Part shown: piece by piece, positions 2,080 through 17,029 of the stretch
Layout of the letters: each line of letters opens with the position of its first letter
Numbering within the stretch: position 1 is the first letter of the stretch
NCBI GenBank assembly: GCA_028288965.1
Contig: JAQGHD010000021.1
Location: 1 to 52,133, forward strand
DNA length: 52,133 bases
DNA from: Candidatus Saccharimonadota bacterium
GTDB lineage: Bacteria; Patescibacteriota; Saccharimonadia; Saccharimonadales; JAQGHD01
Reading direction: 5' to 3'
Translations under genes and position numbers: made by a program
The notes under the pieces: generated by a model
Seen by the model: the letters and a program-made list of their open reading frames with translations, nothing else
What the model was told of the DNA's origin: nothing
Databases searched by the model: none

Positions 2080-2340
2080 ATGTTTGAAACTCTACCAATT
2101 ACCGATGACTTTTATTTGGAAGAAGCTGTAAATCAGGATGAACTTTATACTGATACTATTTTAGATCACTTAAAAGACGCTGATTTTAATGGTGGTGAGC
2201 CAGCCACTTATGAAGAAGTTGCCAAAGAATTCGGTTTAACCCGAGAAAGAATTCGCCAAATAGAGGCGCGCGTCATGTCCAAGCTTCGTCACCCAGCTAC
2301 TATTGCTAGCCTGGGCATTTTAGGCATGTTATCTAGCTAG
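2080..2340 (+). CDS. Stand-alone sigma region 4 protein
   Basis: An 86-residue protein whose second half ([20 protein letters not shown]) is a sigma-70 region 4.2 helix-turn-helix, the -35-binding element, ending MSKLRHP as in RpoD-type factors. There is no region 2, so it cannot act as a full sigma. It may occupy the beta-flap or act with another factor, or be a remnant. Its first residues resemble those of the preceding sigma gene, suggesting partial duplication. It is leaderless (promoter 2044-2072) and its stop codon directly abuts the hammerhead ribozyme encoded on the opposite strand at 2341. Confidence 0.8.
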
Positions 2341-2391
2341 ACCCTTTCGTCCTTTTGGACTCATCAGCAGAAATACACATTTCTGGAGGGT
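2341..2391 (-). ncRNA. Hammerhead ribozyme, type III, cassette 1
   Basis: Read on the minus strand: stem III ACCC, then UC at the cleavage site, stem I hairpin CAGAAAU-GUGU-AUUUCUG, the invariant CUGAUGAG, stem II UCC-AAAA-GGA, then CGAAA and the closing stem III strand GGGU. Every core nucleotide of the hammerhead consensus (CUGANGA, GAAA, NUH) is present. Predicted cleavage is between 2386 and 2385. It lies about 135 nt downstream of the stop of the 2524-3273 gene on the same strand, so cleavage would set the 3' end of that mRNA. Copy 6200-6250 has the same core with different, compensated stems. Confidence 0.92.
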
Positions 2392-2395
2392 ATAG

Positions 2396-2497
2396 CACAG
2401 GGCGGGAGAAGATTACGAGAGAAGAATCCGTGGGACGGATTCGATTCTTTCGTAGAGATCTTCTACAACCACCCTATGACCTAGAGACTTTCTCTAG
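2396..2497 (-). ncRNA. Structured 3'-UTR element upstream of ribozyme (cassette 1)
   Basis: On the minus strand a hairpin CUAGAGA-AAG-UCUCUAG (2497-2481) is followed by a three-way junction. P1 pairs 2478-2469 (CAUAGGGUGG) with 2405-2396 (CCGCCCUGUG); P2 is GUAGA/UCUAC; P3 contains an 8-bp stem GAAUCCGU/ACGGAUUC. The same hairpin and the same junction, with different but compensated helices, occur at 6254-6350. Conserved single-stranded bits are GGUUG before P2 and AAUC-UCUCCC before the P1 3' strand. I cannot name the motif. Confidence 0.75.
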
Positions 2498-2509
2498 GAT
2501 TTTTAGTTT

Positions 2510-2520
2510 TGCACTTCACA
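2510..2520 (-). other. 3' pairing segment, cassette 1
   Basis: On the minus strand UGUGAAGUGCA, only a few bases after the stop at 2524. It can pair with UGCACUUUCACA in the leader (4379-4368): eleven base pairs with one bulged U. See the leader entry and findings. Confidence 0.65.
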
Positions 2521-2523
2521 CGC

Positions 2524-3273
2524 TCAGAAGAGCGCTTCCAGCCGTTCGATAAGCTCTTGCAGTCGTTCGGTACCCACCAGATCGCGGATAGCCCGACGAC
2601 GCTCAGTGGACATCGGCTCGAACATCGCCAGGGGATGGTCGCTTGGACCGAGCAGCGTGCTCAGCGATGTCACCAAACTGTCGATAACAGCCGGTTCGTG
2701 GGGCGTACCGACGATGATCGGTTCGGCGCTGGCCGTCTGGTAAGTCGTTACCGGTCCGGAAGTCGACGACAAGTCCAGATCGAGCTTTTGTTCGATCGTT
2801 GCGATCAACGTGGCTCGACGCTTCTGAACCTCTGCCGCCATCTCCTTGATCATGCCATCCAGCGCGATCAACTTGTCGGAAGGCAATCGAACTGTTTCCC
2901 CCCGCAAAAGCCGGTGCACGTCTTGCTCATTCTGGTAGCCCAGACGCACTTTGACGTTTTTCAGGGTGAGTACCTGAAGCCCGAGAATCTCGGCCAAGCT
3001 GCGGTAATTCTTGGGCAGCTGAGTGAGCTCGCTGATGCGATAGCCCGCAGCCGTCAAGAAAACCGCTAACCGAAACTTTACCTCGCCGGTGGGGGCACTC
3101 GGTTTGTGAATACCACCACGGGTTTCACCCTCGCGCCAACGAAGAACCGTGTCGGTGCTCACCGAACAGGATTCGGCAATGAGGTTACGGACAGTAAGCC
3201 AGCCGGTGGGATACTTCGCCACAAAGTGATGAAAGCATACCACCACTTCACCTTCGTAGGTCCGGGGAGGCAT
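2524..3273 (-). CDS. HTH-like protein, partner of the DGQHR protein
   Basis: A 249-residue soluble protein. I start it at the ATG at 3273-3271 that overlaps the TAA of the upstream gene (TAATG), which implies translational coupling. The N-terminal part (WLTVRNLIAESCSVSTDTVLRW) looks like a helix-turn-helix, and a second segment (YRSLAEILGLQVLTLKNVKV) might be another. The C-terminal half is a long amphipathic helical region (IKEMAAEVQKRRATLIATIEQKL) followed by an acidic, helical tail. I recognise no named family. Because it is coupled to the DGQHR-domain gene and shares its promoter and ribozyme-ended mRNA, it probably acts with it, perhaps as the DNA-binding partner. GC content and codon use are higher than in flanking core genes. 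Confidence 0.8.
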   Translation of the reverse strand: MPPRTYEGEVVVCFHHFVAKYPTGWLTVRNLIAESCSVSTDTVLRWREGETRGGIHKPSAPTGEVKFRLAVFLTAAGYRISELTQLPKNYRSLAEILGLQVLTLKNVKVRLGYQNEQDVHRLLRGETVRLPSDKLIALDGMIKEMAAEVQKRRATLIATIEQKLDLDLSSTSGPVTTYQTASAEPIIVGTPHEPAVIDSLVTSLSTLLGPSDHPLAMFEPMSTERRRAIRDLVGTERLQELIERLEALF

Positions 3274-4316
3274 TATTCCGCAGCCCTTCTTTCCGCCTCG
3301 GCCCATGTCTCCAGATCACTGGACATCCAACGCCTCGTGATTTGCTCCGTAAACGTCCGGCGCATCATGTGGCGAGCGTCTTTGTCGCGCCCGAAGGCAT
3401 GGATTCGAACCGATTCACTGGAAGGGTTGATTCCGGCCAGTTGCTTACGCACCGGCGGTGCAATCTTCAGTCGGGTGCCCTCCCAGAAATAGGTGTAGTC
3501 GGCAAAGACATCGGCCAGGATGAGCATGAAGTTGTGGCTCAAGATGGTCGCGCCCTTGCGCTCTATCTTGGACAACTCCCAGCACTCCTCGAACACGTCG
3601 AAGAACTCCTCGACGTTGGCCTTGAAGCTGGCTTCGCCCACCTTGTCGATGATCTGCAGGAGGTTGGCCGCCAGTTCATCGGAACCACTGGCTTTGCCAG
3701 GACCCCAGTGACTGTGCAACCGAGCCACAATCTTGACCAGCGTGGGCGCTGACATCAAGTGCGTCGGCTTGGCCCCCTGGTCCCACGTCACTCGCTTGAG
3801 CAGCGGCCGAGACCGGTTTTCGGTGTAGCGCAACAAGATGCGCATGGCCGGGTTCGTATCTGCCAAGTTGCGCAGCTTGATGTTCGCCGACAGTTGCGTG
3901 CGATGGAAGTTGAGCAGGTCGAACTGCCGCTTCTCCCATTCGTACGTCTGGTTGACGGCAATGCTGACGCCAATTAGGGGTTCGCTCGGAGCGCCGTTCT
4001 TCATGGCCAGCTCTTTGGAACGGACACGCTGTTGGCCGTCAACGATGAAGACATCGTCTTGGATTTCAACACTGCCATCATCATGCAGCTTGAAACGGCG
4101 GCCGCGGATGTTGAGGTTGATGTCGTTAACGCGTTCACCCGCCGTGTGGGCTTCTACGAGCTCCTGGAAATTCTTCTTTTGTACCAACACTTCGCGCTGG
4201 TAGTCGTCAACCTGCAAAGCAGGCAAGCTGCTGGAGTCCACGTACCCATGGATGAACACATCGCCATCCTCAAGTTCATGGACCATGGCATGTCGAATCA
4301 CTACTTTTCCAGCCAC
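3273..4316 (-). CDS. DGQHR-domain (DndB/ParB-like) protein
   Basis: A 347-residue protein with the motif VDGQQR at about residues 92-97, followed by FDLLNFHRTQLSANIKLR. This is the signature of the DGQHR family, related to the ParB/Srx fold and to DndB of DNA phosphorothioate systems. I see none of the dnd modification genes nearby, so a DNA-sulfur role is not supported. Members of the fold bind nucleotides or DNA and often sit in defence or mobile loci. The start is GTG at 4316, chosen for the AAAAAAGGAG Shine-Dalgarno five bases upstream. It is the first gene of cassette 1 and is translationally coupled to the 2524-3273 gene. Role uncertain. Confidence 0.75.
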   Translation of the reverse strand: MAGKVVIRHAMVHELEDGDVFIHGYVDSSSLPALQVDDYQREVLVQKKNFQELVEAHTAGERVNDINLNIRGRRFKLHDDGSVEIQDDVFIVDGQQRVRSKELAMKNGAPSEPLIGVSIAVNQTYEWEKRQFDLLNFHRTQLSANIKLRNLADTNPAMRILLRYTENRSRPLLKRVTWDQGAKPTHLMSAPTLVKIVARLHSHWGPGKASGSDELAANLLQIIDKVGEASFKANVEEFFDVFEECWELSKIERKGATILSHNFMLILADVFADYTYFWEGTRLKIAPPVRKQLAGINPSSESVRIHAFGRDKDARHMMRRTFTEQITRRWMSSDLETWAEAERRAAE

Positions 4317-4496
4317 AAGGGCTCCTTTTTTCAGTGGGGACAGATGTCAGGTGACAAATTTGCCCCATGTGAAAGTGCAGCGCGTATTTAAGGACCCGGC
4401 AGTCCGTTACCGCCTCGACCGCAGTCGATTTAGCCTCCCAAATGGAAAATTTCCCAAAGGTTATATCATTATTCTATAAAATTACAGTTTAGTCAA
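4317..4496 (-). promoter_or_regulatory. Promoter and structured leader of cassette 1
   Basis: On the minus strand TTGACT (4496-4491), a 17-base spacer and AATAAT (4473-4468) predict a start near 4461. A leader of about 145 nt follows, with a small CGAC-UGCG-GUCG hairpin and the segment UGCACUUUCACA (4379-4368), complementary to the sequence right after the last stop codon of the cassette (2520-2510). A strong Shine-Dalgarno site precedes the GTG at 4316. This contrasts with the leaderless core genes. Confidence 0.75.
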
Positions 4497-4511
4497 CGGC
4501 CAGTACAAGGG

Positions 4512-6107
4512 TCAATCCTGCTCGTTTACGTCTTTCAAAGGCAGTAAATAAGCGCTCTTGTCCGCACGATACTGATTCCACTCTACCGCTGAGGGAAACA
4601 AGTAAACATTCTTGGTAGTATTTTTGCTAGAGCGTGGACTGCGGCTACGCACAACTCTACCTGCTCGCGTTAGAATGCCATATCTTACAAGCTTATTACA
4701 TAAAGCACGGGTCGATTCTTCATCAAGGCCAATGTCCTGGGCAATATCCTCAGCTTCTTTGCCTCTACCCGGATAGCGCATGGCAATAATCGCGTCCAGT
4801 ATTCTCGGTGCAAGTGACAGATCTTCGTCAGTTATGGCATTTACATCTTCTTTTTGTGGCTTAGGGTTGTCGTTAGCCTTTTTCTTTACTAACGGCGCTA
4901 CCGGCTTTTCGAGAGACACCATGCGGCTGCCTTTCTGGGCACCACTGTAAAATAAATGCTCGCCGTCAACATACTTGGCGATCATAGCCTTGGCTTCCAA
5001 ACGGCTACAGTTTTTAAACTCGGTCAGCACCCCGGTGAGTTGCGGCAAGAGCACATCTCCCGTAGATAGGGTTTCGCGGAGCACACGGAGGATTTCGTGG
5101 TCTTCTAAGTGAAGGACCTGTGCTGGTTGTGGCCGACCAATTTGCTCAATTGTCTCGGTTGGCATGGTTTTAACAGTAGGTTGGCGCCGACCTTGACGGT
5201 CAGGCATAGCAACATCAATAATCGTGCCAAAGGTTTGTTTCAAGCCAGCCTTTTTATCGATCGGGGTTGGTTCTACCGGTTCAACCGCAGCCGGTCCAAC
5301 AATCAGTTGATAAAATTCCTTTTTATTAGTACGCCCGGTAGTTTTTACTTCCCACCTGGCAGGCACCTGTACATCCCCTAGAAGGGCAAGCACTTGGTGA
5401 CGGAGTTCACTTAAGTTTTGTTTGAAGTCATTGAACTCCGAATCGCTCAAAGCCATAAACTTCCAGCTTTTTTCGCGTAAAACTGCGAGCTCAACCGGAC
5501 GAATATCTAAAGCTGCTTCTACAAAACTAAGCTGCACCTGATCAAAACCATATCGCCCAAGATGCTCTAAAATATCTAGGGTGTTAATTTCCGCTGCAGC
5601 TGCTGCCTCTTCTTCAGCCTGGCGCTCAGCTTCCTCGGCAGCTTTTTGCTCAGCGGCTTTTTGCTCGGCGGCTTGACGTCGAGCAGCTTCGCGTTCGGCG
5701 GCTTTTTCTGCCAATGGCTGGGCAAATAAGGTATCGAAGGCATTCACAGCTTGTTTGTCATAGCCTAGTTCGGCTACGGCTGACATTGATGCCGGTACAG
5801 GAAGTTGATCGGCCGGAAGTATGCCCTCAGCCGCATATTGACTCAGTCTCATAAAAGAAGTTTGTCGCTGCCGGTCTTCATCATTCATTGCCAGTGCCAA
5901 TTGGCCAAGGGCCGTATAGTTTTTGGCCAGCTTGGGATTTTTTTCTATATAGGTAAACGCTCGCTCGTAACTAGTCGCTAAAGCTGTCTGATAGGCGTCA
6001 CGATGTTCCTCCGGTGCAGCGGCACTAGCTTCTAGCACCTCGGCCATAATTTTGGCCAGGCGATCAAACTCCAAGCGATCTGGATTTATACTAGCTTCTG
6101 TACTCAC
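4512..6107 (-). CDS. Protein with sigma-associated N-domain, coiled coil and possible C-terminal winged helix
   Basis: A 531-residue cytoplasmic protein starting at GTG 6107 (AGGA upstream). Order: a helical N-terminal part (about 1-120), an Ala/Glu-rich coiled coil (AEQKAAEQKAAEEAERQAEEE), then a domain of about 95 residues (TLDILEHLGRYGFDQVQLSFVEAALDIRPVELAVLREKSWKFMALSD ... YQLIVG) shared with the sigma-like proteins at 509 and 20450. The C-terminal third (ILDAIIAMRYPGRGKEAEDIAQDIGLDEESTRALCNKLVRYGILTR) resembles a winged-helix DNA-binding domain. It lacks sigma regions 2 and 4. I infer a transcription regulator that uses the common domain to contact the same partner as the two sigma proteins. 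It lies between cassettes 1 and 2 but has core-like base composition. Confidence 0.75.
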   Translation of the reverse strand: MSTEASINPDRLEFDRLAKIMAEVLEASAAAPEEHRDAYQTALATSYERAFTYIEKNPKLAKNYTALGQLALAMNDEDRQRQTSFMRLSQYAAEGILPADQLPVPASMSAVAELGYDKQAVNAFDTLFAQPLAEKAAEREAARRQAAEQKAAEQKAAEEAERQAEEEAAAAAEINTLDILEHLGRYGFDQVQLSFVEAALDIRPVELAVLREKSWKFMALSDSEFNDFKQNLSELRHQVLALLGDVQVPARWEVKTTGRTNKKEFYQLIVGPAAVEPVEPTPIDKKAGLKQTFGTIIDVAMPDRQGRRQPTVKTMPTETIEQIGRPQPAQVLHLEDHEILRVLRETLSTGDVLLPQLTGVLTEFKNCSRLEAKAMIAKYVDGEHLFYSGAQKGSRMVSLEKPVAPLVKKKANDNPKPQKEDVNAITDEDLSLAPRILDAIIAMRYPGRGKEAEDIAQDIGLDEESTRALCNKLVRYGILTRAGRVVRSRSPRSSKNTTKNVYLFPSAVEWNQYRADKSAYLLPLKDVNEQD

Positions 6108-6199
6108 GACTCATTCCTAATTAGCCACTACTCAAAACATATACTTTACTACTTTATTGCTTATGTAGCAACATCGTGCGAAGTCTTTGTTTTTATTTT

Positions 6200-6250
6200 A
6201 AGCTTTCGTCCTTTTGGACTCATCAGCATGAATACGCATTCATGGAGCTT
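6200..6250 (-). ncRNA. Hammerhead ribozyme, type III, cassette 2
   Basis: On the minus strand: stem III AAGC, UC at the cleavage site, stem I hairpin CAUGAAU-GCGU-AUUCAUG, CUGAUGAG, stem II UCC-AAAA-GGA, CGAAA, then GCUU closing stem III. Predicted cleavage is between 6245 and 6244. Compared with the copy at 2341-2391 the stem I pairs CAGAAAU/AUUUCUG become CAUGAAU/AUUCAUG and stem III ACCC/GGGU becomes AAGC/GCUU, so pairing is kept while sequence changes. It lies downstream of the ubiquitin-like gene that ends cassette 2. Confidence 0.92.
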
Positions 6251-6253
6251 TTG

Positions 6254-6350
6254 CACGGAATGGGAGACGATTGGTATGAAGAGTGCTAAGGCACTGCAAT
6301 CCATACACAGAATCATCTGCAACCATCCCGTGACTAGAGACTTTCTCTAG
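6254..6350 (-). ncRNA. Structured 3'-UTR element upstream of ribozyme (cassette 2)
   Basis: On the minus strand hairpin CUAGAGA-AAG-UCUCUAG (6350-6334) is identical to that of cassette 1. A three-way junction follows: P1 CACGGGAUGG (6332-6323) with CCAUUCCGUG (6263-6254), P2 GCAGA/UCUGU, P3 GUAUG/CAUAC enclosing AGUGC-CUUA-GCACU. The helices differ from those at 2396-2478 but pair in the same order, while GGUUG and AAUC-UCUCCC are kept. Confidence 0.75.
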
Positions 6351-6357
6351 GTTTTTG

Positions 6358-6382: not shown

Positions 6383-6628
6383 TTAGCCGTTGATCACCTT
6401 GCCGACGACGACGAGCACGCTGTTGGCGGTCACCTCGTCGGTCGGAGCTGCCGGCGCGCCGTTGAGCGTTACCACCTGACCAGCCACCAGCCGAACATTG
6501 GCTCGGTCCAGGGCCTCCTGCACAGTGACGCCCGGCTCGTAATCGAGCGTTACGGTGTCACCGGCCAGTTGGGTAACGCGAATGACTTGTGCTTCGGCGG
6601 CTTCTTCGATGGTAGGTTCAGTAGTCAC
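6383..6628 (-). CDS. Ubiquitin-like beta-grasp protein (MoaD/ThiS/PRTRC-C-like)
   Basis: An 81-residue protein, the last gene of cassette 2. After a short acidic N-terminus the pattern is strand (QVIRVTQLAG), strand (TVTLDYEPG), helix (TVQEALDRANV), strand (QVVTLNGAPA) and a last strand ending VLVVVGKVING. The 'LNG' turn and C-terminal glycine are typical of MoaD/ThiS-type and prokaryotic ubiquitin-like proteins, whose terminal Gly is adenylated by an E1. Here the tail is NG rather than GG. Immediate neighbours are E1-, JAB- and E2-like genes, as in PRTRC and other bacterial Ubl operons, which favours protein conjugation over sulfur carrying. Translation starts at ATG 6628 with an AAGGAG-like site upstream. 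Confidence 0.8.
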   Translation of the reverse strand: MTTEPTIEEAAEAQVIRVTQLAGDTVTLDYEPGVTVQEALDRANVRLVAGQVVTLNGAPAAPTDEVTANSVLVVVGKVING

Positions 6629-6681
6629 GATTTCTCCTTGTTGGGTTCGTTTCGGTGTGGTCTAACTGTAATCACCTGTGA

Positions 6682-7353
6682 TCAGGCGGCCGCGAATTGC
6701 ATGGCTTTGAGGTGAGCGGTGAGATTGAGTTTGTAGGCCTCCTCTCGCAAGAAAAGCGTGAGCTGAGCCACCATGAGGTTGGCTAGTACGCCGGCGGGAT
6801 GGATAACTGTCCGAGCTGCGCAAGGCAATTCCATGCCTTCCGAGTCCGGAAACAGCCACTTCTCGTAGAACTCTGTCTCGTCGAAATTCGACGGGTTCAC
6901 GCAAAGCAACTGTAGTTGCTCGCCACCGATTCGTCCGTCCAAGTAGAACGGCACCAAGGGGTTGTACTTGACCGCCTCCCAGATGTCCGACCGACTCGAC
7001 ATGGAATCGACACAACTGAATACGACGCCCTCCAGAGCGGTCTCAGAAGTAACGTACTCCTCGTGCTGGACGACCTTGCAGTCGGCCTCTTGGCGTTCGA
7101 GGAAGTGCATCGCCGCTTCCACCTTGTTCAGACCCACGTCACTGGGACGATAGATCAATTGCGCAGGGATGTTGTGTGGTTCGACCGCATCGTGATCCCA
7201 CAGGTGAAGTTGGCTGACGCCGAGCTTGACCAACGGGTAGAGCAACGCGCTCCCGATACCACCGACACCAATGACATGCACTGGCCAGGTGAACTTATCG
7301 GGATCGAAGATCGCCCGTTGATCGCGGTAGTCAACATTCAGTCGGCTTCCCAT
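6682..7353 (-). CDS. E1-like ThiF/MoeB-family adenylating enzyme
   Basis: A 223-residue E1-like enzyme. A Rossmann ATP-binding loop GVGGIGS lies at residues 29-35, acidic residues WDHDAVEPHN at 52-61, and CVDSMSSR carries the conserved Asp at about 116. Cys178 in LPCAARTVIHPAG is in the position of the E1 catalytic cysteine. The Arg of the usual NxxRQ motif is replaced (NIPAQ), and the zinc-binding Cys pairs of MoeB/ThiF are absent, as in the short E1 enzymes of bacterial ubiquitin-like operons. It should activate the C-terminus of the Ubl encoded 53 bp downstream and hand it to the E2-like protein. It overlaps the JAB gene by 16 bp. Confidence 0.85.
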   Translation of the reverse strand: MGSRLNVDYRDQRAIFDPDKFTWPVHVIGVGGIGSALLYPLVKLGVSQLHLWDHDAVEPHNIPAQLIYRPSDVGLNKVEAAMHFLERQEADCKVVQHEEYVTSETALEGVVFSCVDSMSSRSDIWEAVKYNPLVPFYLDGRIGGEQLQLLCVNPSNFDETEFYEKWLFPDSEGMELPCAARTVIHPAGVLANLMVAQLTLFLREEAYKLNLTAHLKAMQFAAA

Positions 7354-7970
7354 GGAAGAATCTCCTCTCCACGTAGCGCCGCATGGACATTGTCGTTAGT
7401 CGGTTTGACGTGATTTTGTCGCATGAACCGACGCGGCTGACGCACCTTAGCGGCAACTTCGATTCGACACTCTGCAGCTAACCGCTCATCGACCACCGAA
7501 ACAACCTTGAGCTCGAGCGGAGTCCAGGTTCGGAACGGACGAAAAACGTCCAGTCTGAGCTCGTATTCGCCTAGCTTGTTGGTCACCATGCTGACCATCC
7601 AGTCAGCTGTGTACGCCTCGATGTTGGCCATGTCGGTACCGGAGAAAAACGCCGGCATACGAACATGTGAGTGCCACTGGAAACGCATCCGTGCCGTGTC
7701 CTCGCCCTGCAGGACCATGTCAGTAATGAAACGACCGAGTGCTATTGGGTCGATTTCTACCGCAGCGGGTTCGGCGGTTTGCTCGAGAATGAAGATGTTG
7801 CTCAGCTGGAGCTGATTTCCCAACCGATCGATCATCCCAAACCCGTTGATCTCCACCGGACAGGCCTGCACATACGCCATGATCTTCTGCCACATCTGGT
7901 ATGGCATGATCAGTGTCGGTGTCGGCATGAACCCCGCGGTTGCCTGATGCATTCCGGATTGATAGGTCAC
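7338..7970 (-). CDS. JAB/MPN+ metalloprotease (deubiquitinase-like)
   Basis: A 210-residue protein with a complete JAMM zinc motif: Glu40 (VEINGFG), His100 and His102 in HSHVRMPAFFSGTD, Ser110 and Asp113, giving H-x-H-x7-S-x2-D exactly. JAB peptidases of Ubl operons trim the Ubl precursor or remove it from targets. The Ubl here ends at its Gly, so no maturation is needed and deconjugation is the more likely role. It overlaps the E2-like gene by 4 bp (ATGA) and the E1 gene by 16 bp, so all are translated from one mRNA. The arrangement resembles PRTRC protein A and the JAB of Bil-type systems. Confidence 0.88.
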   Translation of the reverse strand: MTYQSGMHQATAGFMPTPTLIMPYQMWQKIMAYVQACPVEINGFGMIDRLGNQLQLSNIFILEQTAEPAAVEIDPIALGRFITDMVLQGEDTARMRFQWHSHVRMPAFFSGTDMANIEAYTADWMVSMVTNKLGEYELRLDVFRPFRTWTPLELKVVSVVDERLAAECRIEVAAKVRQPRRFMRQNHVKPTNDNVHAALRGEEILPWEAD

Positions 7971-9337
7971 TTCGCCTCCTTAAAGGCCTCGGGGATCCGG
8001 TACAAGTGCACGTCATTGACCGAGTGCAGACAATCTACTGCCACCTCCACGGCTTCCAGGAACTGGCCTTTATTCAAATTGTTGGAGATCACTGTAGCGC
8101 GATCGCCAAAACAGAAATGGCCATTCCCAAGCCGGTAAGCCGGATAGTAACCATCATCCCAACTTCTCCGAACGCCTGTTCGTAATTCTTTCGCGAACAG
8201 TCTAGGTGAAGCATCGAAGCGTATTTCCCAGTCACCCAGGTCATACACTGTACCTTCGTACACGATCTGCGGCTTCACTAGCACAGCGATGGAGTCATTT
8301 ACCACCCGAACGCCCTCGACGCCACGAAGGTTAAGCAAGCGATCGAACTCGATGTTGAGGTGTGCAAGATCCGGTGGTTCCGTATCCAGCTCCATTTTTT
8401 CAAGCTCAGCCTGAGCTACACGGACTTCATTGCGCTGTCCTTGCAGCAGACGAATTTCTTCACCTGCGTTGCGCAGTCGCTCCTCAACATCTTGCTGATC
8501 CTGGCGCAATTGATCGCGACGGCTTGCAATAACCTGCCCTCGGTTCATTGTTCGGATCTTCCGATACAACGATCGGGCCGCTTGAGGAGCACTGAAGAAC
8601 CGATACGACGGCTCGTGTTGTTGTTCAGTCTGCTCCAGCTCAGTAGCAAACGGGTCAAGAGCCTGATCAGCCCATTGGGCAGCTGCTTCAAGCTCCGTGT
8701 GCACGACCTCAATCTGCTGGTGAGTCGGCATGGTCAGCCGTTTGCGCGCTTTTCTAACCCGAACCGCACTTACCACGTAAAATGGCCAACCAAGCGGCAG
8801 AGCAGTAAAGAACACAGACGGATAAACCCATCCTTCGTTCCACCGGATGTCCAGCAACCCTTCGTGCCGTTTCCGAGACTGCAAGCCATATGAGGCAAAC
8901 AGTATCATTGAAAACAAACCGTAAATGGCGGCCAGGGTCAACGGCACATCCCGCTGCCAGAAATCTCTTCCGACATGGGGGTGGGGGTGCTCTAAGACCA
9001 ACCGGCTACCATCCTTGGCTACGGTTTGCAGATGTTTGACCTCCTGACTATCGAGGGTAACCACACTTATCGGTTGGGTGTGCATGTACAGGATTTCCTT
9101 GGCCAGGAGCATGCGCTTGGTCGGATCATGAACTGAGTTGACCGTTCGCATGAGGTATTCGTGCTCGTGTGAAGTGCGCAGTTGATGCGATTCTGAAACT
9201 GAATACGTAATGCCGCCAACAACTATGAACAAGAAGCCAACTAAGGCCACCAAGATCATGAGTGTGGCGTACCCGCGGTTATTACTCAACCTTGAAGCCA
9301 CGTCATCGTAGTCGAAGTGCCTGGGGCGAAGTACCAT
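7967..9337 (-). CDS. Membrane protein with coiled coil and E2-like C-terminal domain
   Basis: A 456-residue protein opening cassette 2, start ATG 9337 behind AAGGAG. It has a transmembrane segment near residues 24-46, two more near 130-150 and 172-192, a long coiled coil about 205-330, and a C-terminal soluble domain. That domain contains DGYYPAYRLGNGHFCFGD, followed by a helix and AVDCLHSVND. The pattern (Tyr/His-Pro, Gly, then Cys-x-Gly-Asp, then a long helix) matches prokaryotic E2-like domains such as PRTRC protein B; Cys409 would be the Ubl-accepting residue. With the E1, Ubl and JAB genes this makes a full conjugation set, but with the conjugating enzyme tied to the membrane. The E2 assignment is by motif and context only. 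Confidence 0.6.
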   Translation of the reverse strand: MVLRPRHFDYDDVASRLSNNRGYATLMILVALVGFLFIVVGGITYSVSESHQLRTSHEHEYLMRTVNSVHDPTKRMLLAKEILYMHTQPISVVTLDSQEVKHLQTVAKDGSRLVLEHPHPHVGRDFWQRDVPLTLAAIYGLFSMILFASYGLQSRKRHEGLLDIRWNEGWVYPSVFFTALPLGWPFYVVSAVRVRKARKRLTMPTHQQIEVVHTELEAAAQWADQALDPFATELEQTEQQHEPSYRFFSAPQAARSLYRKIRTMNRGQVIASRRDQLRQDQQDVEERLRNAGEEIRLLQGQRNEVRVAQAELEKMELDTEPPDLAHLNIEFDRLLNLRGVEGVRVVNDSIAVLVKPQIVYEGTVYDLGDWEIRFDASPRLFAKELRTGVRRSWDDGYYPAYRLGNGHFCFGDRATVISNNLNKGQFLEAVEVAVDCLHSVNDVHLYRIPEAFKEAK

Positions 9338-9507
9338 GACTATTCTCCTTACAAGTTGCTACTGCCTAGGTGACGGCTCACCGTAATAAGCCAGCACCTA
9401 AGCAGAAAATCTCGTAAGAAGTTACTCGTCTTAAGTTTTTAAATAACAAAAAGCCAGAAACTGACTTTTCAGGGGGTAATTATATAATTATAAATGAATT
9501 AGGTCAA
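9338..9507 (-). promoter_or_regulatory. Promoter and structured leader of cassette 2
   Basis: On the minus strand TTGACC (9507-9502), 17 bases, TATAAT (9484-9479); start near 9472. The ~135-nt leader opens with a small CUGA-AAAG-UCAG hairpin, then GUUAUUUA (9447-9440), and six bases later UAAGACGAG (9433-9425), the complement of the segment at 6366-6358 behind the last gene. A hairpin with CUGCUUAGGUG/CACCUAGGCAG stands before the AAGGAG ribosome-binding site. Confidence 0.8.
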
Positions 9508-9519
9508 TGGGGTTAGCTT

Positions 9520-12201
9520 CTAGCGGAAGCGAATGACGTGTTCGTCGGAGAGATCGCCAGAGACGTCGGCAGACGGCGTCGGATAATGTGAATTTATTGG
9601 AGAGGTTTGCTCGATTGGATGGTCGCTGGTTTTCTTTTTGCGGCGTCGAGTGCGTTTGCGTTTAGGTTTTGGCTCCTCCGAGCCGTTTCCTGAGGGGTGG
9701 CCAGGAGTTATGGAAGCAGGAGTTTCGGGAATTACCTTATTCAATCGATTGCTTATTTCTATCACGAACTGGCTTGGGGTTTGGGGCTTGGCTGGTAGGG
9801 CAGCGCTCGGCGTTGATTTTGATGGTTGCGAAGGGGCTTCCGTAGGAGTGGCCGGTGTAGTCGGGGCGCCGCGGTTGGCATCATCGGGTCGGGGCGCCCG
9901 CGGGCGAGTTGGGCGGACTGGCTCGAGCTTTGGTGTGCCGACGTAGCGCTCTTGGACAAAACTTTCTATGTCTGCTCGATTAACAGCGTAGGTACGGCGA
10001 GTGTGTTCGATAATCTGGGGGCTGTAATCGGTAGGGGCCGGCGGCAAATCCAGGGTAGTGGCCGAAAAGGCTTGGGCTTTTTCGCCCTCAATGGTCATGC
10101 TAATGGCAAAATGGCGGTTGTGCATGTGCACCAGGTCGTATTCTAAAAAGTTCGGCTCAAAGTACTTCATCATGGTGCGGGAATCGTCAGCGCTCATACG
10201 AAAACCAATGATCGAGCCAACGTTACCAAACACGGCGTCCTTGACGGTCATGTCCATCTGGGCAATGTACTGGTTGGCGACAGTTAAGTTGAGGCCGTAC
10301 TTGCGAGCCTCGGATAGAATAGTGGCAAAGGACTCCGTGGCAAAGTTCTGGAATTCATCCACATAGAGGTAGAACGGATGCCGCTCTTCAATGCCAATGT
10401 CGGCCCGGCTCATGGCCGCCAGCTGGATTTTGGTTACCAGCAGGGCACCCAGTAGTGCGGCGTTGTCTTCGCCAATCAGCCCGCGCGACAGGTTTACAAT
10501 CAAAATTTTGCGCTCATCCATGATTTTACGGATATTAAAGCTGCTCTTGGGCTGGCCAATAATGTTGCGCACCGTCGGATTAGCCGTAAAGGCGCCCACC
10601 TTGTTTAATACCGGCGCCACGGCTTCGGCGGCGAATTTATCGTTCCAGCTGGCAAATTCTACGGTCCAGAAGTTTTTGACCACTGGGTCTTGCACGTAGC
10701 TGAGCACCTCGTTGCGGAATTTCTTATCGGTTAATATGCGCGTAATGTCCAGCATGGTGGCCTGCGGGTAGTCGAGTAGCGCCAACAGACTGTAGCGCAA
10801 AATGTATTCCAGGCGCGGGCCCCACGACTCAAACATGCGCTTCAGCACACCGATGAGCTCAGAGGTGGTGTGAGTCTTGAGCTTTTCGTCGTAGACTTCC
10901 ATGGGGTTAAAGGCAATCGGAAAGTCAGTGTCAGCCGGGTTAAAATATATAACGTCTTTGATACGATCTTCTGGTATCCGGCGCAAAATGTTCAGCGCGT
11001 AGTCACCATGTGGGTCGATCACCGCAAAGCCGTAGGGATGATCAATTTCCGAGATGGTCAAAAGCTCTAGCAAGGCCGATTTACCGACACCGGTCTGTCC
11101 AATAATGTACAAGTGCCGGCCGCGGTCTACCCGGGGCATACCAAACATGGTGTTATGTCCCCGGAAGTTAGTAACGGCAATTGGGCTGACCAAATCACGC
11201 GTAGCCTCTGTTACCAGCGGCAAATTAGCCGGCGGCTCAGCTGTTTTGGCGCTGGCCCACAAAATGTTGGGCGTTTCCACGTTGGTATGCGGCAGGTGAT
11301 ATAAACTCGCCAGTTCTTCAATGTTACAAATCAGGCCCTTACTCTCAAAGGCACGAGCGTGATACTGATGAATAAAGTGATTGCCGGTGCCCAGGTACTT
11401 CAGTACAAAGCCGTTTAAGTAGGTACCATTGAACTGCTTAAAGCTGGCGCCAATAGCCTGGATGCGCATGCGGGCTTGAGCCTCGGTGCCGTGGCCCCGG
11501 TAAATAATGCGGATCTTGGTTTCATAAGCTAGTTTGTGGCTTTTTTCTTCGGCAGCACTGGCTCGGGCCGTGTCAAACTCGGTCAGCTTGGGCGGCGCAG
11601 CGGCCGTCGGCGAGGTCGATAAAATCTTAAGCAGGTTAGTTGAGCCGCCGCGTTTTTTGGCCACATATTTTTCACTGCTTTTATACCAATTGTCTTTGGC
11701 CGGACGGATCAGCACCTGCAGCCAGGCTTCCTCGTTACCTTCAAACTGGGCCAGACCGGCGGTAATAGCAGCCAGCGGGTCAACCTCAAAGCTGGGAAAC
11801 GTCCTCAGCGGTAAGGCATCGTCTGCTGTAAAGCGCAGCTCGGCCGATAGCTGTGAGGTGTAATCGCTCGACGGCACAGCATAGTCCACCACTTCGCTAA
11901 TGTTCACCTCTGGGTACTGGGCATAAATCTGCTCCTCTACAAAAGCTTTCAGATGTTCCGGCACCCACACATAGAAGCAAATGCGCTTGTTTTGGACAGC
12001 TATTTCAAAGCTGAGCGTGTCGCGCAGCGCCGCTTGAAACATTTTTTTCTCTGAGCTCAGGAGGCCGTGCAAGCTGGCAAACATTTGCTCAGCAGCTAGT
12101 TCCTTCTTTTCGTTGGTGCGCGGAATCTGTAGGAGCAGGACAACGCCATCGGGTCGGAGGGGTGGGGAAGCAGCAAGGCTACGCCGCAGGGGATTTTGCA
12201 T
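9520..12201 (-). CDS. VirD4/TraG-like type IV secretion/coupling ATPase
   Basis: An 893-residue P-loop ATPase. I start it at ATG 12201 (MQNPLRRSL), ten bases after a TATAAT on the minus strand, rather than further upstream. The first ~400 residues form a mixed domain seen with type IV secretion ATPases. Then come Walker A IIGQTGVGKSALLELL, AVIDPHGDY, Walker B FYLYVDEFQNF, and the VirD4/TraM-recognition pattern NQYIAQMD. The C-terminal ~140 residues are Pro/Thr-rich and end in a Lys/Arg tail (KPKRKRTRRRKKK). Proteins of this kind in CPR genomes are thought to power pili or export of DNA or protein at the membrane. No other T4SS gene is in this window. It sits between cassettes 2 and 3, with core-like promoter style. 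Confidence 0.8.
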   Translation of the reverse strand: MQNPLRRSLAASPPLRPDGVVLLLQIPRTNEKKELAAEQMFASLHGLLSSEKKMFQAALRDTLSFEIAVQNKRICFYVWVPEHLKAFVEEQIYAQYPEVNISEVVDYAVPSSDYTSQLSAELRFTADDALPLRTFPSFEVDPLAAITAGLAQFEGNEEAWLQVLIRPAKDNWYKSSEKYVAKKRGGSTNLLKILSTSPTAAAPPKLTEFDTARASAAEEKSHKLAYETKIRIIYRGHGTEAQARMRIQAIGASFKQFNGTYLNGFVLKYLGTGNHFIHQYHARAFESKGLICNIEELASLYHLPHTNVETPNILWASAKTAEPPANLPLVTEATRDLVSPIAVTNFRGHNTMFGMPRVDRGRHLYIIGQTGVGKSALLELLTISEIDHPYGFAVIDPHGDYALNILRRIPEDRIKDVIYFNPADTDFPIAFNPMEVYDEKLKTHTTSELIGVLKRMFESWGPRLEYILRYSLLALLDYPQATMLDITRILTDKKFRNEVLSYVQDPVVKNFWTVEFASWNDKFAAEAVAPVLNKVGAFTANPTVRNIIGQPKSSFNIRKIMDERKILIVNLSRGLIGEDNAALLGALLVTKIQLAAMSRADIGIEERHPFYLYVDEFQNFATESFATILSEARKYGLNLTVANQYIAQMDMTVKDAVFGNVGSIIGFRMSADDSRTMMKYFEPNFLEYDLVHMHNRHFAISMTIEGEKAQAFSATTLDLPPAPTDYSPQIIEHTRRTYAVNRADIESFVQERYVGTPKLEPVRPTRPRAPRPDDANRGAPTTPATPTEAPSQPSKSTPSAALPAKPQTPSQFVIEISNRLNKVIPETPASITPGHPSGNGSEEPKPKRKRTRRRKKKTSDHPIEQTSPINSHYPTPSADVSGDLSDEHVIRFR

Positions 12202-12549: not shown

Positions 12550-14220
12550 ATGAGCAGAAGCAGGAAAGTATTCCTGTTACCTCTGGTCATTACGCTGCTC
12601 GCTGTAGCAATGAGTTCGGCCAGTATGCAGGCAAGCGCAGACAGCGCAACTGCTACAACACCGACCACAGCGTCGACAGCCGGAACACCACCCGCCCCGC
12701 AGGCAACATCAGCCTGCATTTCCCAGCCAGTCCCCACCACAGCTGATACCCCGTTTACCACCGACACGCAACAACGCGTACAGGCGGCCCAACGAGCGGT
12801 ACCAGCCGAGTTCAAATCGGAAATGCCGCCTAGCAATCCGGCCGCACCCCTGTCGGCTACGACACACCTCCCGGCCACCCTGAACGAACCCGTCGTTCTG
12901 TCTGGCTTGGTGGCGGTGCAGCTACAAGGAACACGAGCTGGAGCCGCTCAGGCATCCAACCGGGCTCAGAAGCTGTTCGCCAATGGTTTGTCCAACACGG
13001 ACGTCGTTGTTGAACAGGGAGATGACACCGTACGGACCAGTCTGGTGCTTAACAACGCTGGCGCACCCCGCCAGTTCCAATTCTCGTTTGCGCCGATTTG
13101 CGCCGACGGGAAGAGCACCAGCCCCAATACGATCCACCTGGAACAGGGCCGCGACGGCAACGTTCAGGTGATTTCGGACAACGGGCTCGATGAACACGCT
13201 ATTGGCGTGGCGTACAAGCCGTGGGCAGTTGACGCCGTCGGTAAGCGTTTGGCAACATCGTATCGAATCAGCGGCAACACGCTGACTCAACGTGTCGATG
13301 TCAAGAACGCGGTATTCCCGGTGGTCGCTGACCCGACCTACTACGCCATGACCTGCGACGCCGGGTACTACACGTCTGCGTCGGCAGATCAGTTCGTGGA
13401 CTTCGGGTACTGCCCAGTGTGGGCCTGGTTCTATGCCGCAAGGGGATATACTCCCGTGCGCGCCTACGCTCCCCACATCTACAACGACCGCAAGTACGTC
13501 TACGTTGACCAGGGAGGCGACTGTTCACATGCTCCTGACACAGGACTGAATTTCGATTTCTCGGTTCCGTGTCGAGCCCACGACTACTGCTATGACCTGC
13601 TCAGAGCGGCCATGGGTGGCGTCGTAAAGTCAGCGTGCGACAATCTTTTCCTCGCGCTGATGAACGATGACTGCAACGACCGTACCTTTCCTGGTACTGG
13701 TGCCGCCTGTCGGTTCATTGCCAAAACGTACTACGACGCTGTCGGATTGGTCGGCAGCCCGGCGAAATTCAATTCGCCTTACCTGCACTTGGTGGCGTCG
13801 CACAGTAGTAAGTGTGCCGACATCAACAACAAGAACGGTGGAGCAGTCCAGTCGTTTGCGGTACTCCAGCAGTACGGCTGCTCGGGAGGTAGCAACCAGA
13901 CCTTCCGGTTCTTCAAGTACGACAACGCCGGCACCTACACCATCCAGTCGCTGATAAACACCGGCAACTGCTTGGCGCGGGACTGGAACAAGTACAGCCA
14001 GGAATGGATTATCTGGACGGAATACTGCACAGCACTTCGCTCCGTTGCGAACTCCATCTGGAGGCCGCGGGGCATCAACTACCACAACCAGTATTCCATC
14101 TTCCTGTCCGGGCAATTGGTGTGCTGGGATGTGCCGTACTCCTCGTTGTTCGACGAAGTGTGGATAATCACTTATCCATGCTCGGAGACCAGCAACGAGG
14201 TTTGGTACATGAGACGTTAA
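12550..14220 (+). CDS. Secreted phospholipase A2 with ricin-type lectin domain
   Basis: A 556-residue exported protein. ATG 12550 is preferred because TAAGGAG lies seven bases upstream and a signal peptide follows (MSRSRKVFLLPLVITLLAVA...ASA). A Thr/Ala/Pro-rich stretch and a ~200-residue unknown domain come first. Residues about 325-385 contain VPCRAHDYCYDLL: His344-Asp345 flanked by Cys341 and Cys347 is the catalytic signature of the prokaryotic/fungal phospholipase A2 family. Many further cysteines suggest disulfides. The C-terminus (about 410-555) has ricin-B-like features (KCADINNKNGGAVQ ... NQTFRF, NCLARDWN), a sugar-binding fold. It should hydrolyse phospholipids outside the cell after glycan binding. 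For an epibiont this would suit attack on, or feeding from, a host cell. GC-rich, Actinobacteria-like codon use. Confidence 0.8.
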   Translation: MSRSRKVFLLPLVITLLAVAMSSASMQASADSATATTPTTASTAGTPPAPQATSACISQPVPTTADTPFTTDTQQRVQAAQRAVPAEFKSEMPPSNPAAPLSATTHLPATLNEPVVLSGLVAVQLQGTRAGAAQASNRAQKLFANGLSNTDVVVEQGDDTVRTSLVLNNAGAPRQFQFSFAPICADGKSTSPNTIHLEQGRDGNVQVISDNGLDEHAIGVAYKPWAVDAVGKRLATSYRISGNTLTQRVDVKNAVFPVVADPTYYAMTCDAGYYTSASADQFVDFGYCPVWAWFYAARGYTPVRAYAPHIYNDRKYVYVDQGGDCSHAPDTGLNFDFSVPCRAHDYCYDLLRAAMGGVVKSACDNLFLALMNDDCNDRTFPGTGAACRFIAKTYYDAVGLVGSPAKFNSPYLHLVASHSSKCADINNKNGGAVQSFAVLQQYGCSGGSNQTFRFFKYDNAGTYTIQSLINTGNCLARDWNKYSQEWIIWTEYCTALRSVANSIWRPRGINYHNQYSIFLSGQLVCWDVPYSSLFDEVWIITYPCSETSNEVWYMRR

Positions 14221-14728: not shown

Positions 14729-14812
14729 AATAAGAGTGAGAGCGGGCGAATGTGTCGAGGGTCGCAAACAGCGATCAAACCCTCGGCACATTCCGCCCGC
14801 AATCCTCTTATT
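14729..14812 (+). ncRNA. Long 3'-UTR hairpin of cassette 3
   Basis: AAUAAGAG pairs with CUCUUAUU at the ends, then GCGGGCG/CGCCCGC, GAAUGUG/CACAUUC, CGAGGGU/ACCCUCG, and CGC/GCG around a short loop. A five-base bulge AUCAA (14774-14778) interrupts the 3' arm near the top. It is not followed by a U-tract, so it is not an intrinsic terminator. The ribozyme starts where it ends. A hairpin with the same top and bulge position occurs at 16112-16185. Confidence 0.85.
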
Positions 14813-14885
14813 AATTTGATCAACGAATAGCACCAATAAGGTGAAGAGTCGTTCTGATGAGCTGTATACAGCGAAATCAAATTTA
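14811..14885 (+). ncRNA. Hammerhead ribozyme, type III, cassette 3
   Basis: Stem III UUUGA/UCAAA (14815-14819 with 14877-14881, extendable by two A-U pairs), cleavage triplet AUC with the cut after 14821, stem I AACGA/UCGUU with internal loop AUAG/AAGAG and distal CACC/GGUG, core CUGAUGAG at 14854-14861, stem II CUG-UAUA-CAG, then CGAAA. All conserved core bases are present. The stem I internal loop and the stem II loop are placed for the loop-loop contact known to speed natural hammerheads. Confidence 0.93.
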
Positions 14886-16051: not shown

Positions 16052-16060
16052 AGTTAGCAG
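16052..16060 (+). other. 3' pairing segment, cassette 4
   Basis: AGUUAGCAG, exact complement of CUGCUAACU in the leader at 15099-15107. Confidence 0.7.
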
Positions 16061-16111
16061 AAAGTTTGAGCGAGCCGCCCCAGTCAAGGCCTTGGCCTTG
16101 GCACTCGCTCA

Positions 16112-16185
16112 GAAGGGCGCGGGCGGGAGTTCCGAGGGTCGCATACGCGATCACACCCTCGGTTCATCCCGCCCGCTATCCCTTC
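16112..16185 (+). ncRNA. Long 3'-UTR hairpin of cassette 4
   Basis: GAAGGG/CCCUUC, then GCGGGCGGGA/UCCCGCCCGC, CCGAGGGU/ACCCUCGG and CGC-AUAC-GCG, with bulge AUCAC (16150-16154) in the 3' arm, the same place as AUCAA in the hairpin at 14729. A separate hairpin UGAGCGAG/CUCGCUCA lies just upstream (about 16067-16111). The ribozyme follows directly. Confidence 0.85.
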
Positions 16186-16256
16186 GCTCGAATAAACGAA
16201 TAGCACCTAATAAGGTGAGAAGTCGTTCTGATGAGCTGTAAACAGCGAAATCGAGC
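16186..16256 (+). ncRNA. Hammerhead ribozyme, type III, cassette 4
   Basis: Stem III GCUCGA/UCGAGC (16186-16191, 16251-16256), stem I AACGA/UCGUU with distal CACCU/AGGUG and internal loop AUAG/AGAAG, CUGAUGAG, stem II CUG-UAAA-CAG, CGAAA. The expected cut follows AUA at 16194. One extra A (16192) lies between stem III and the cleavage triplet compared with the other copies. This could slow cleavage or be accommodated as a bulge. Confidence 0.88.
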
Positions 16257-16774: not shown

Positions 16775-16874
16775 AGTGATGATCACGCGGGGCGGCGTGC
16801 TCAGAAATGACCGTACAACGGGCCAATTGACTAAGGTCCTTAAGTCGAATTCATCGACACAGCGTCAGCGAGAC

Positions 16875-16950
16875 GAGGCAACGGGTGGGGAAGTCCTTAG
16901 TTGATTCGCTTACTAGCGAATAAACTTGGATCACTCCACCCGTTAGCCTC
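16875..16950 (+). ncRNA. Long 3'-UTR hairpin of cassette 5
   Basis: GAGGC/GCCUC and AACGGGUGG/CCACCCGUU form the base, with an upper stem AUUCGCU-UACU-AGCGAAU. A GGAUCAC segment lies in the 3' arm where AUCAA/AUCAC bulges occur in the hairpins of cassettes 3 and 4. No U-tract follows; the hammerhead does. Confidence 0.75.
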
Positions 16951-16955
16951 TCTCA

Positions 16956-17029
16956 TATCGATAAACGAATAGTGCCCATCCCATAGGGCAAAAAGTCGTT
17001 CTGATGAGCTGTAAACAGCGAAATCGATA
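16956..17029 (+). ncRNA. Hammerhead ribozyme, type III, cassette 5
   Basis: Stem III UAUCGA/UCGAUA (16956-16961, 17024-17029), cut after AUA at 16963, stem I AACGA/UCGUU with internal loop AUAG/AAAAG and distal UGCCC/GGGCA, core CUGAUGAG at 17001-17008, stem II CUG-UAAA-CAG, CGAAA. The distal stem I helix is wholly different from CACC/GGUG of the other plus-strand copies yet pairs fully, strong support for a conserved RNA. Confidence 0.93.

Follow-up and report, generated by a model that had tools for sequence, protein, structure and literature searches.

Structured 3' modules joined to hammerhead ribozymes at the ends of gene cassettes in a Saccharimonadota genome and its relatives

The DNA analysed here is a stretch of 52,133 nucleotides (nt) from a Candidatus Saccharimonadota bacterium (assembly GCA_028288965.1, contig JAQGHD010000021.1, positions 1 to 52,133), hereafter the window. 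It contains five gene cassettes with a structured 3' region ahead of a hammerhead ribozyme core, two on the minus strand (cassettes 1 and 2) and three on the plus strand (cassettes A to C). The two minus-strand cassettes share a type of 3' module, here called class B, and comprise the following features:

2386-2504, minus strand: class B 3' module, copy 1 (hairpin H1 2480-2498; P1 arms 2469-2478 and 2396-2405; tail to the cleavage site)
2340-2391, minus strand: type III hammerhead, copy 1 (core 2345-2367; predicted cleavage after 2386, between ACCCUC and CAGAAA; from core match, Rfam and fold)
2524-4316, minus strand: cassette 1 genes (open reading frames, ORFs, 3273-4316 and 2524-3306)
6245-6356, minus strand: class B 3' module, copy 2 (H1 6334-6351; P1 arms 6323-6332 and 6254-6263; tail)
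6199-6250, minus strand: type III hammerhead, copy 2 (core 6204-6226; predicted cleavage after 6245; from core match, Rfam and fold)
6383-9337, minus strand: cassette 2 operon (ORFs 7967-9337, 7338-7970, 6682-7353 and 6383-6628)

Both modules lie 3' of minus-strand ORFs, downstream of cassettes 1 and 2 as an earlier note on this DNA had reported. That note described a new three-way-junction RNA at 2396-6350, an interval that leaves the copy 1 hammerhead outside. Each module consists of the short hairpin H1, which indeed reads CUAGAGA-AAG-UCUCUAG in both copies, a UCA linker and a single long irregular hairpin with P1 as its base. The minimum-energy fold of both copies takes the form of this one long hairpin, with -50.9 kcal/mol for copy 1 (z-score -9.17 against dinucleotide shuffles) and -41.7 kcal/mol for copy 2 (z-score -6.58), and none of 200 shuffles folded equally well in either case. 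The note's statement that three stems differ in sequence and stay paired holds for P1, in which letters change between the copies and pairing is kept in each, and finds no support for P2 and P3. Forcing P2 costs 8.3 kcal/mol in copy 1 and 4.2 kcal/mol in copy 2, no P2 pair reaches a probability above 0.0005, and an RNAalifold consensus of six aligned modules retains P1 only. The three-way topology is therefore rejected, whereas the structured element beside the hammerheads stands. The element is real and, judged against Rfam 15, represents a new RNA family, since no Rfam family was found at or near its gathering score for the 3' modules of the window. An apical motif (UYGA, stem, UUC) that by eye seemed to recur in modules of class B and some others was dropped after a scan of 76 hammerhead sites found it in the two window copies only (control, 1 of 150).

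The note had named a lack of further homologues or of significant covarying pairs as grounds for abandoning the element; further homologues were found, and covarying pairs were counted in H1 and P1. Seven more class B modules occur in four other families, two each in the genomes G026, G140 and G732 and one in G139. In G026, which belongs to another family of the same order, homologues of the cassette 1 and cassette 2 genes adjoin (27-65% protein identity) and both transcripts terminate in a class B-type module. The G140 modules are located at L035 and, 3' of a homologue of the cassette 1 gene, at L148, that of G139 (L055) has a shorter stem, and the two modules of G732, a member of another class of the phylum, are short. 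The shared form is an A-rich stretch, a hairpin framed by CCU and AGG, UCA, a long hairpin and a tail of 8-10 nt, and it is looser in copy 2, L055 and L148. Compensatory change is present in H1 and P1. Across nine modules read by hand, 130 of 134 counted cells are paired and 11 of 15 positions show changes on both sides, in a count with hand-typed arms, without bulges and with several closely related modules. The six-module consensus keeps ten P1 pairs, five of them with changes on both sides, in a MAFFT alignment that places only P1 well.

The homologous genes do not all carry the module. The cassette 1 gene was found at five places among 392 genomes, with module and hammerhead in G000 and G140, with a module but no hammerhead in G026 (L053), with a related two-hairpin form and a hammerhead in G118, and in G298 without a hammerhead within the scanned flanks. 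The E1-like gene of cassette 2 was found at 18 places in 16 of these 392 genomes, and within the short flanks scanned a hammerhead matching the search pattern accompanies it only at L129 (G026), L133 (G180) and in the window.

The hammerheads that the note placed after the two modules are of type III and have an identical core. Both contain the CUGANGA and GAAA core elements and three stems with stem III open, and both match Rfam Hammerhead_3 (RF00008), copy 1 with 38.9 bits (E 4.5e-6) and copy 2 with 36.2 bits (E 2.7e-5). These scores are 9.6 and 12.3 bits short of the gathering score of 48.5 bits, and the Rfam scan returned no hammerhead above this cut-off in the window or in 10 loci. Judged by sequence and predicted fold, both copies are nevertheless hammerheads, with the core intact despite the sub-threshold score.

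Of 148 genomes of the order that were searched with a hammerhead pattern, 60 contain at least one match. As a backward control also matched a number of genomes, a stem II of 4 bp or longer was required, which left 76 distinct hammerheads in the examined regions. An ORF ends at most 420 nt upstream in 74 of these 76, and the hammerhead mostly lies 100-300 nt past the stop codon. The cassette genes are GC-rich and mostly without assigned function; a minority of 80 proteins match Pfam (23 families, nearly all with a single protein). Several kinds of 3' module precede the hammerheads, such that the two classes recognised in the note for one ribozyme type are true but understated. Among 84,980 species genomes, a tail-plus-hammerhead pattern matched 14 stretches, 13 of which are from Saccharibacteria/Saccharimonadia and one from a genome labelled 'bacterium'. 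When 379 genomes of the phylum were searched with a stricter pattern, 11 matched, six of which belong to other classes. By its sequence features, the window pair belongs to this larger set of ribozyme-ended and often seemingly end-paired cassette mRNAs.

In many cassettes, the leader carries TTTGACAAGCAGACA and the tail preceding the hammerhead carries TGTCTGCTTGTCA, an arrangement here called class A. Letters change while the predicted pairing is kept, and two cassettes that lie side by side at L091, in the genome of the window, are an example. Leader-tail complementarity was assessed for 73 of the 76 hammerheads, the others being too near a contig end or lacking a usable ORF, against a control in which tails were swapped among cassettes and each combination was re-optimised. 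With leaders defined as the 230 nt before start codons, the own tails scored 11.81 compared with 10.00 for swapped tails (standard deviation 0.19, maximum 10.95 in 5000 swaps), and 21 of the 73 cassettes reached p<0.01 and 28 p<0.05. Leaders beginning after the -10 box gave 9.75 compared with 8.19 (standard deviation 0.18, maximum 8.92). A search over 2.3 kb upstream gave 13.81 compared with 12.62 (standard deviation 0.19, maximum 13.32) and, because of its weak ranks, was replaced by the promoter- and start-codon-defined leaders. Relatedness among cassettes remains in the swapped-tail control; many tails also share one motif, so that swapped tails match class A leaders as well and the test becomes more demanding. 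Over the whole set, the complementarity of a leader to its own pre-cleavage tail exceeds what swapped tails achieve.

Thirty selected leader-tail pairs show 389 of 420 cells paired, 110 with changes on both sides; these pairs were chosen by complementarity, which biases a fixed-register swap control on them. A promoter match of at least 8/12 lies upstream of 24 of the 30 leaders and of 96 of 600 random places. The median distance from the -10 box to the start of the leader is 39 nt, which places the leader inside the transcript. Family f58, which belongs to another class, repeats this design in four genomes, with different sequences and with compensatory changes, and leader/tail pairs from this class are TAGCGTGTGGTGA/TCACCACACGCTA, TAGCGTGTGATGA/TCATCACACGCTA and TAGCACAGGATGAA/TTCATCCTGTGCTA. 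No leader-tail pairing was identified at L164, L165 and L151, in or near f58, nor at the sites in G674 and G732. Protection, circularisation and regulation are candidate roles for the putative panhandle.

On the plus strand of the window, the 3' regions are built differently from class B, as the note had also observed, with long hairpins in its place:

14730-14821, plus strand: long 3' hairpin of cassette A (fold z-score -9.89)
14854-14876, plus strand: hammerhead core of cassette A (core match)
16056-16194, plus strand: structured 3' region of cassette B (fold z-score -7.58)
16228-16250, plus strand: hammerhead core of cassette B (core match)
16826-16963, plus strand: structured 3' region of cassette C (fold z-score -8.16)
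17001-17023, plus strand: hammerhead core of cassette C (core match)

A protein of cassette A (12550-14217, plus strand) has phospholipase A2 and ricin-type lectin domains and a start resembling a signal peptide. In cassette 1, ORF 3273-4316 shows a weak, below-cut-off match to GmrSD_N (E 5.9e-4). The cassette 2 operon encodes a JAB-like protein (7338-7970, match below cut-off), a ThiF/E1-like protein (6682-7353) and an 81-residue protein (6383-6628) that is putatively ubiquitin-like by position and size only, while a profile search gave no domain match for ORF 7967-9337. The E1-E2 models of PADLOC recognise nothing in this operon beyond its E1-like part, and no complete known defence system was detected there. 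By eye, the 5' leaders of the E1/JAB operons (9338-9560, minus strand, in the window; L053) seem to have in common a hairpin AAAGnCAG...CTGnCTTTTTGT followed by ATTTAA. Elsewhere in the order, two family f3 genomes (L078, L081) share a further 3' module upstream of the hammerhead, in which the stem varies and the loop, CACCATTAAT or TACCATTAAT, is conserved. In three genomes (L054, L073, L042), homologous genes with 49-57% identity, which we take to be dprA, precede unrelated cassettes and may mark an insertion hot spot.

The base composition of the cassettes poses a second, independent puzzle, as they differ from the resident genes of these very reduced genomes. In a comparison that requires no reading frame, GC content before the hammerhead exceeds that downstream at 65 of 72 sites (median +0.079). 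GC content at third codon positions (GC3) is higher in cassettes than in the ribosomal operon in 25 of 26 genomes (median +0.25). A ribosomal L14 locus was available for 27 of 30 genomes, 26 remained after cassette ORFs L041, L049 and L061 were dropped as wrong or uncertain, and cassettes from genomes outside the 30 were not used. Since in-order ORFs were chosen by a frame score that uses GC3 minus GC2 (the value at second codon positions), the GC3 test is favoured, and the frame-free count is the fairer control. In the AT-rich genomes G121 and G444 the cassettes are AT-rich as well, though less so. Candidate causes of the gap are recent transfer, exchange among Saccharibacteria and selection for the codons of another cell; high expression in the own cell explains the GC3 shift poorly because ribosomal genes lack it.

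On balance, we think it somewhat probable that the hammerheads serve mRNA stability by producing a defined 3' end capped by a folded structure and, in many cases, closed as a panhandle. RNA polymerase would transcribe the gene and continue across the 3' module and through the hammerhead, which, its core being intact, would then cut itself off and leave an mRNA with a last 8-10 nt after a very stable hairpin. Hammerhead cleavage leaves a 2',3'-cyclic phosphate. In some two fifths of all cassettes, and in class A in particular, the 3' arm next to the cut could alternatively pair with the leader and join the mRNA ends as a panhandle. The window copies would use the self-contained form of H1, UCA and long hairpin. 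The most likely outcome would be an end that resists 3' exonucleases and long-lived mRNAs for horizontally circulating cassette genes.

Several observations weigh against this proposal. All five window cassettes lack leader-tail pairing (p 0.19 to 1.0), such that a panhandle does not explain the class B element of the window, and 45 of the 73 cassettes lack it at p<0.05. In the 2.3 kb leader search, the own tail ranks first in 6 of 73 cassettes only (1.1 by chance; maximum 6 in 2000 swaps). The class B module of G026 at L053 4851-4966 is not followed by a hammerhead. At L053:4785-4870 (minus strand), a hairpin closed by CACCC/GGGUG (z-score -3.95) takes the place of the hammerhead. This hairpin could represent a degenerated site or a self-cleaving RNA of another type; an Rfam search gave chance microRNA matches only for the L053 module (E of at least 0.13) and nothing for the hairpin.

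An ordinary phage-type processing system, with cassettes as remnants of phage or mobile DNA and hairpins as mere 3' protection without a special role, is an unlikely alternative to stable mRNA ends. Prophage hammerheads flank genes, and processing has been suggested for them in the accessible text of Perreault et al. (2011, PMC3088659). Thirty-four viral contigs (L213-L246) contain an identical hammerhead core, and most of the 35 viral sites, read by eye, come shortly after the end of a gene and a hairpin of simple form, the plain version of the arrangement in the cassettes. However, the cassettes have their own promoters, and the class A tail with hammerhead occurs in no viral contig, which argues against a phage origin of class A. 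By eye, the phage hairpins also leave few nucleotides and no leader-complementary arm, and GC content before phage hammerheads exceeds the contig value by only a few points.

Rather less likely is regulation, in which leader-tail pairing would hide the ribosome-binding site or feed a double-strand nuclease, for which the icaR mRNA of Staphylococcus aureus offers a precedent (PMC3868564, as far as its accessible text goes). The paired leader does cover the ribosome-binding site at L054+6392 and L061+5727, 4-5 nt before the start codon, but mostly it lies 77-208 nt before the start codon and upstream of that site.

We consider it improbable that the cassettes are moved as DNA by a recombinase, with leader and tail as their terminal inverted repeats or the 3' module as an attC-like site. 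The cargo is diverse and mostly without known function, cassettes follow homologous dprA-like genes in three genomes, and G100 has a cassette after rnhB where its congeners G096 and G111 have another small gene, presumably yraN. A single transposase, however, needs like ends within a genome, whereas neighbouring cassettes differ and co-vary (at L091, AAATAGACAG/CTGTCTATTT beside AACCAGACA/TGTCTGGT), which argues against a transposon with terminal inverted repeats; the leaders moreover lie behind promoters, and the RNA enzyme is at one end only.

Least probable of all is that these ultrasmall bacteria make a dedicated mRNA class (strong promoter, structured leader, panhandle, GC-rich foreign-looking frame, ribozyme-cut end) for export and translation in the host cell of the epibiont, with protected ends and host-fitted codons: the composition gap in both comparisons and homologous cassettes that are GC-rich in two families would agree with this, but recent gene transfer from GC-rich bacteria accounts for the composition equally well, the cassettes of G121 and G444 follow their AT-rich genomes, and a literature search turned up no export route or host-side RNA, nor do we know of any.

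The hammerheads mark a large and recognisable set of mRNAs of common design, through which the role of bacterial hammerheads becomes testable. The window ribozymes share with RF00008 the CUGAUGA and GAAA core, stems I to III and a predicted cut after an unpaired C or A, and differ in scoring below gathering and in being joined to a large 3' module. Integron gene cassettes are single, mostly unknown genes, each with a folded, imperfect attC hairpin of variable length; the cassettes described here resemble them in these respects and differ in having their own promoters, a ribozyme and leader-tail co-variation.

A literature search without preprints and most subscription journals returned no paper linking hammerheads with Patescibacteria, Saccharibacteria or the candidate phyla radiation. 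For prophage hammerheads, the available parts of the published accounts call the function unproven (Perreault et al., 2011, PMC3088659) and, in a 2017 review that notes ORFs for small non-conserved proteins, the bacterial roles open (PMC6155905). As described there, phage and prophage sites likewise place a hammerhead after a gene and a hairpin, but their hairpins are simple, whereas large modules, own promoters and predicted leader-tail pairing occur among the cassettes that Saccharibacteria and further classes of their phylum carry. The nearest case of pairing between 5' and 3' untranslated regions is icaR, which, in the accessible text of PMC3868564, concerns one mRNA without a ribozyme that pairs at its ribosome-binding site. 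Here, many unrelated mRNAs would pair through an arm adjoining the ribozyme cut, and leader-tail pairing, if true, would represent a bacterial counterpart of the closed-loop mRNA, made without proteins.

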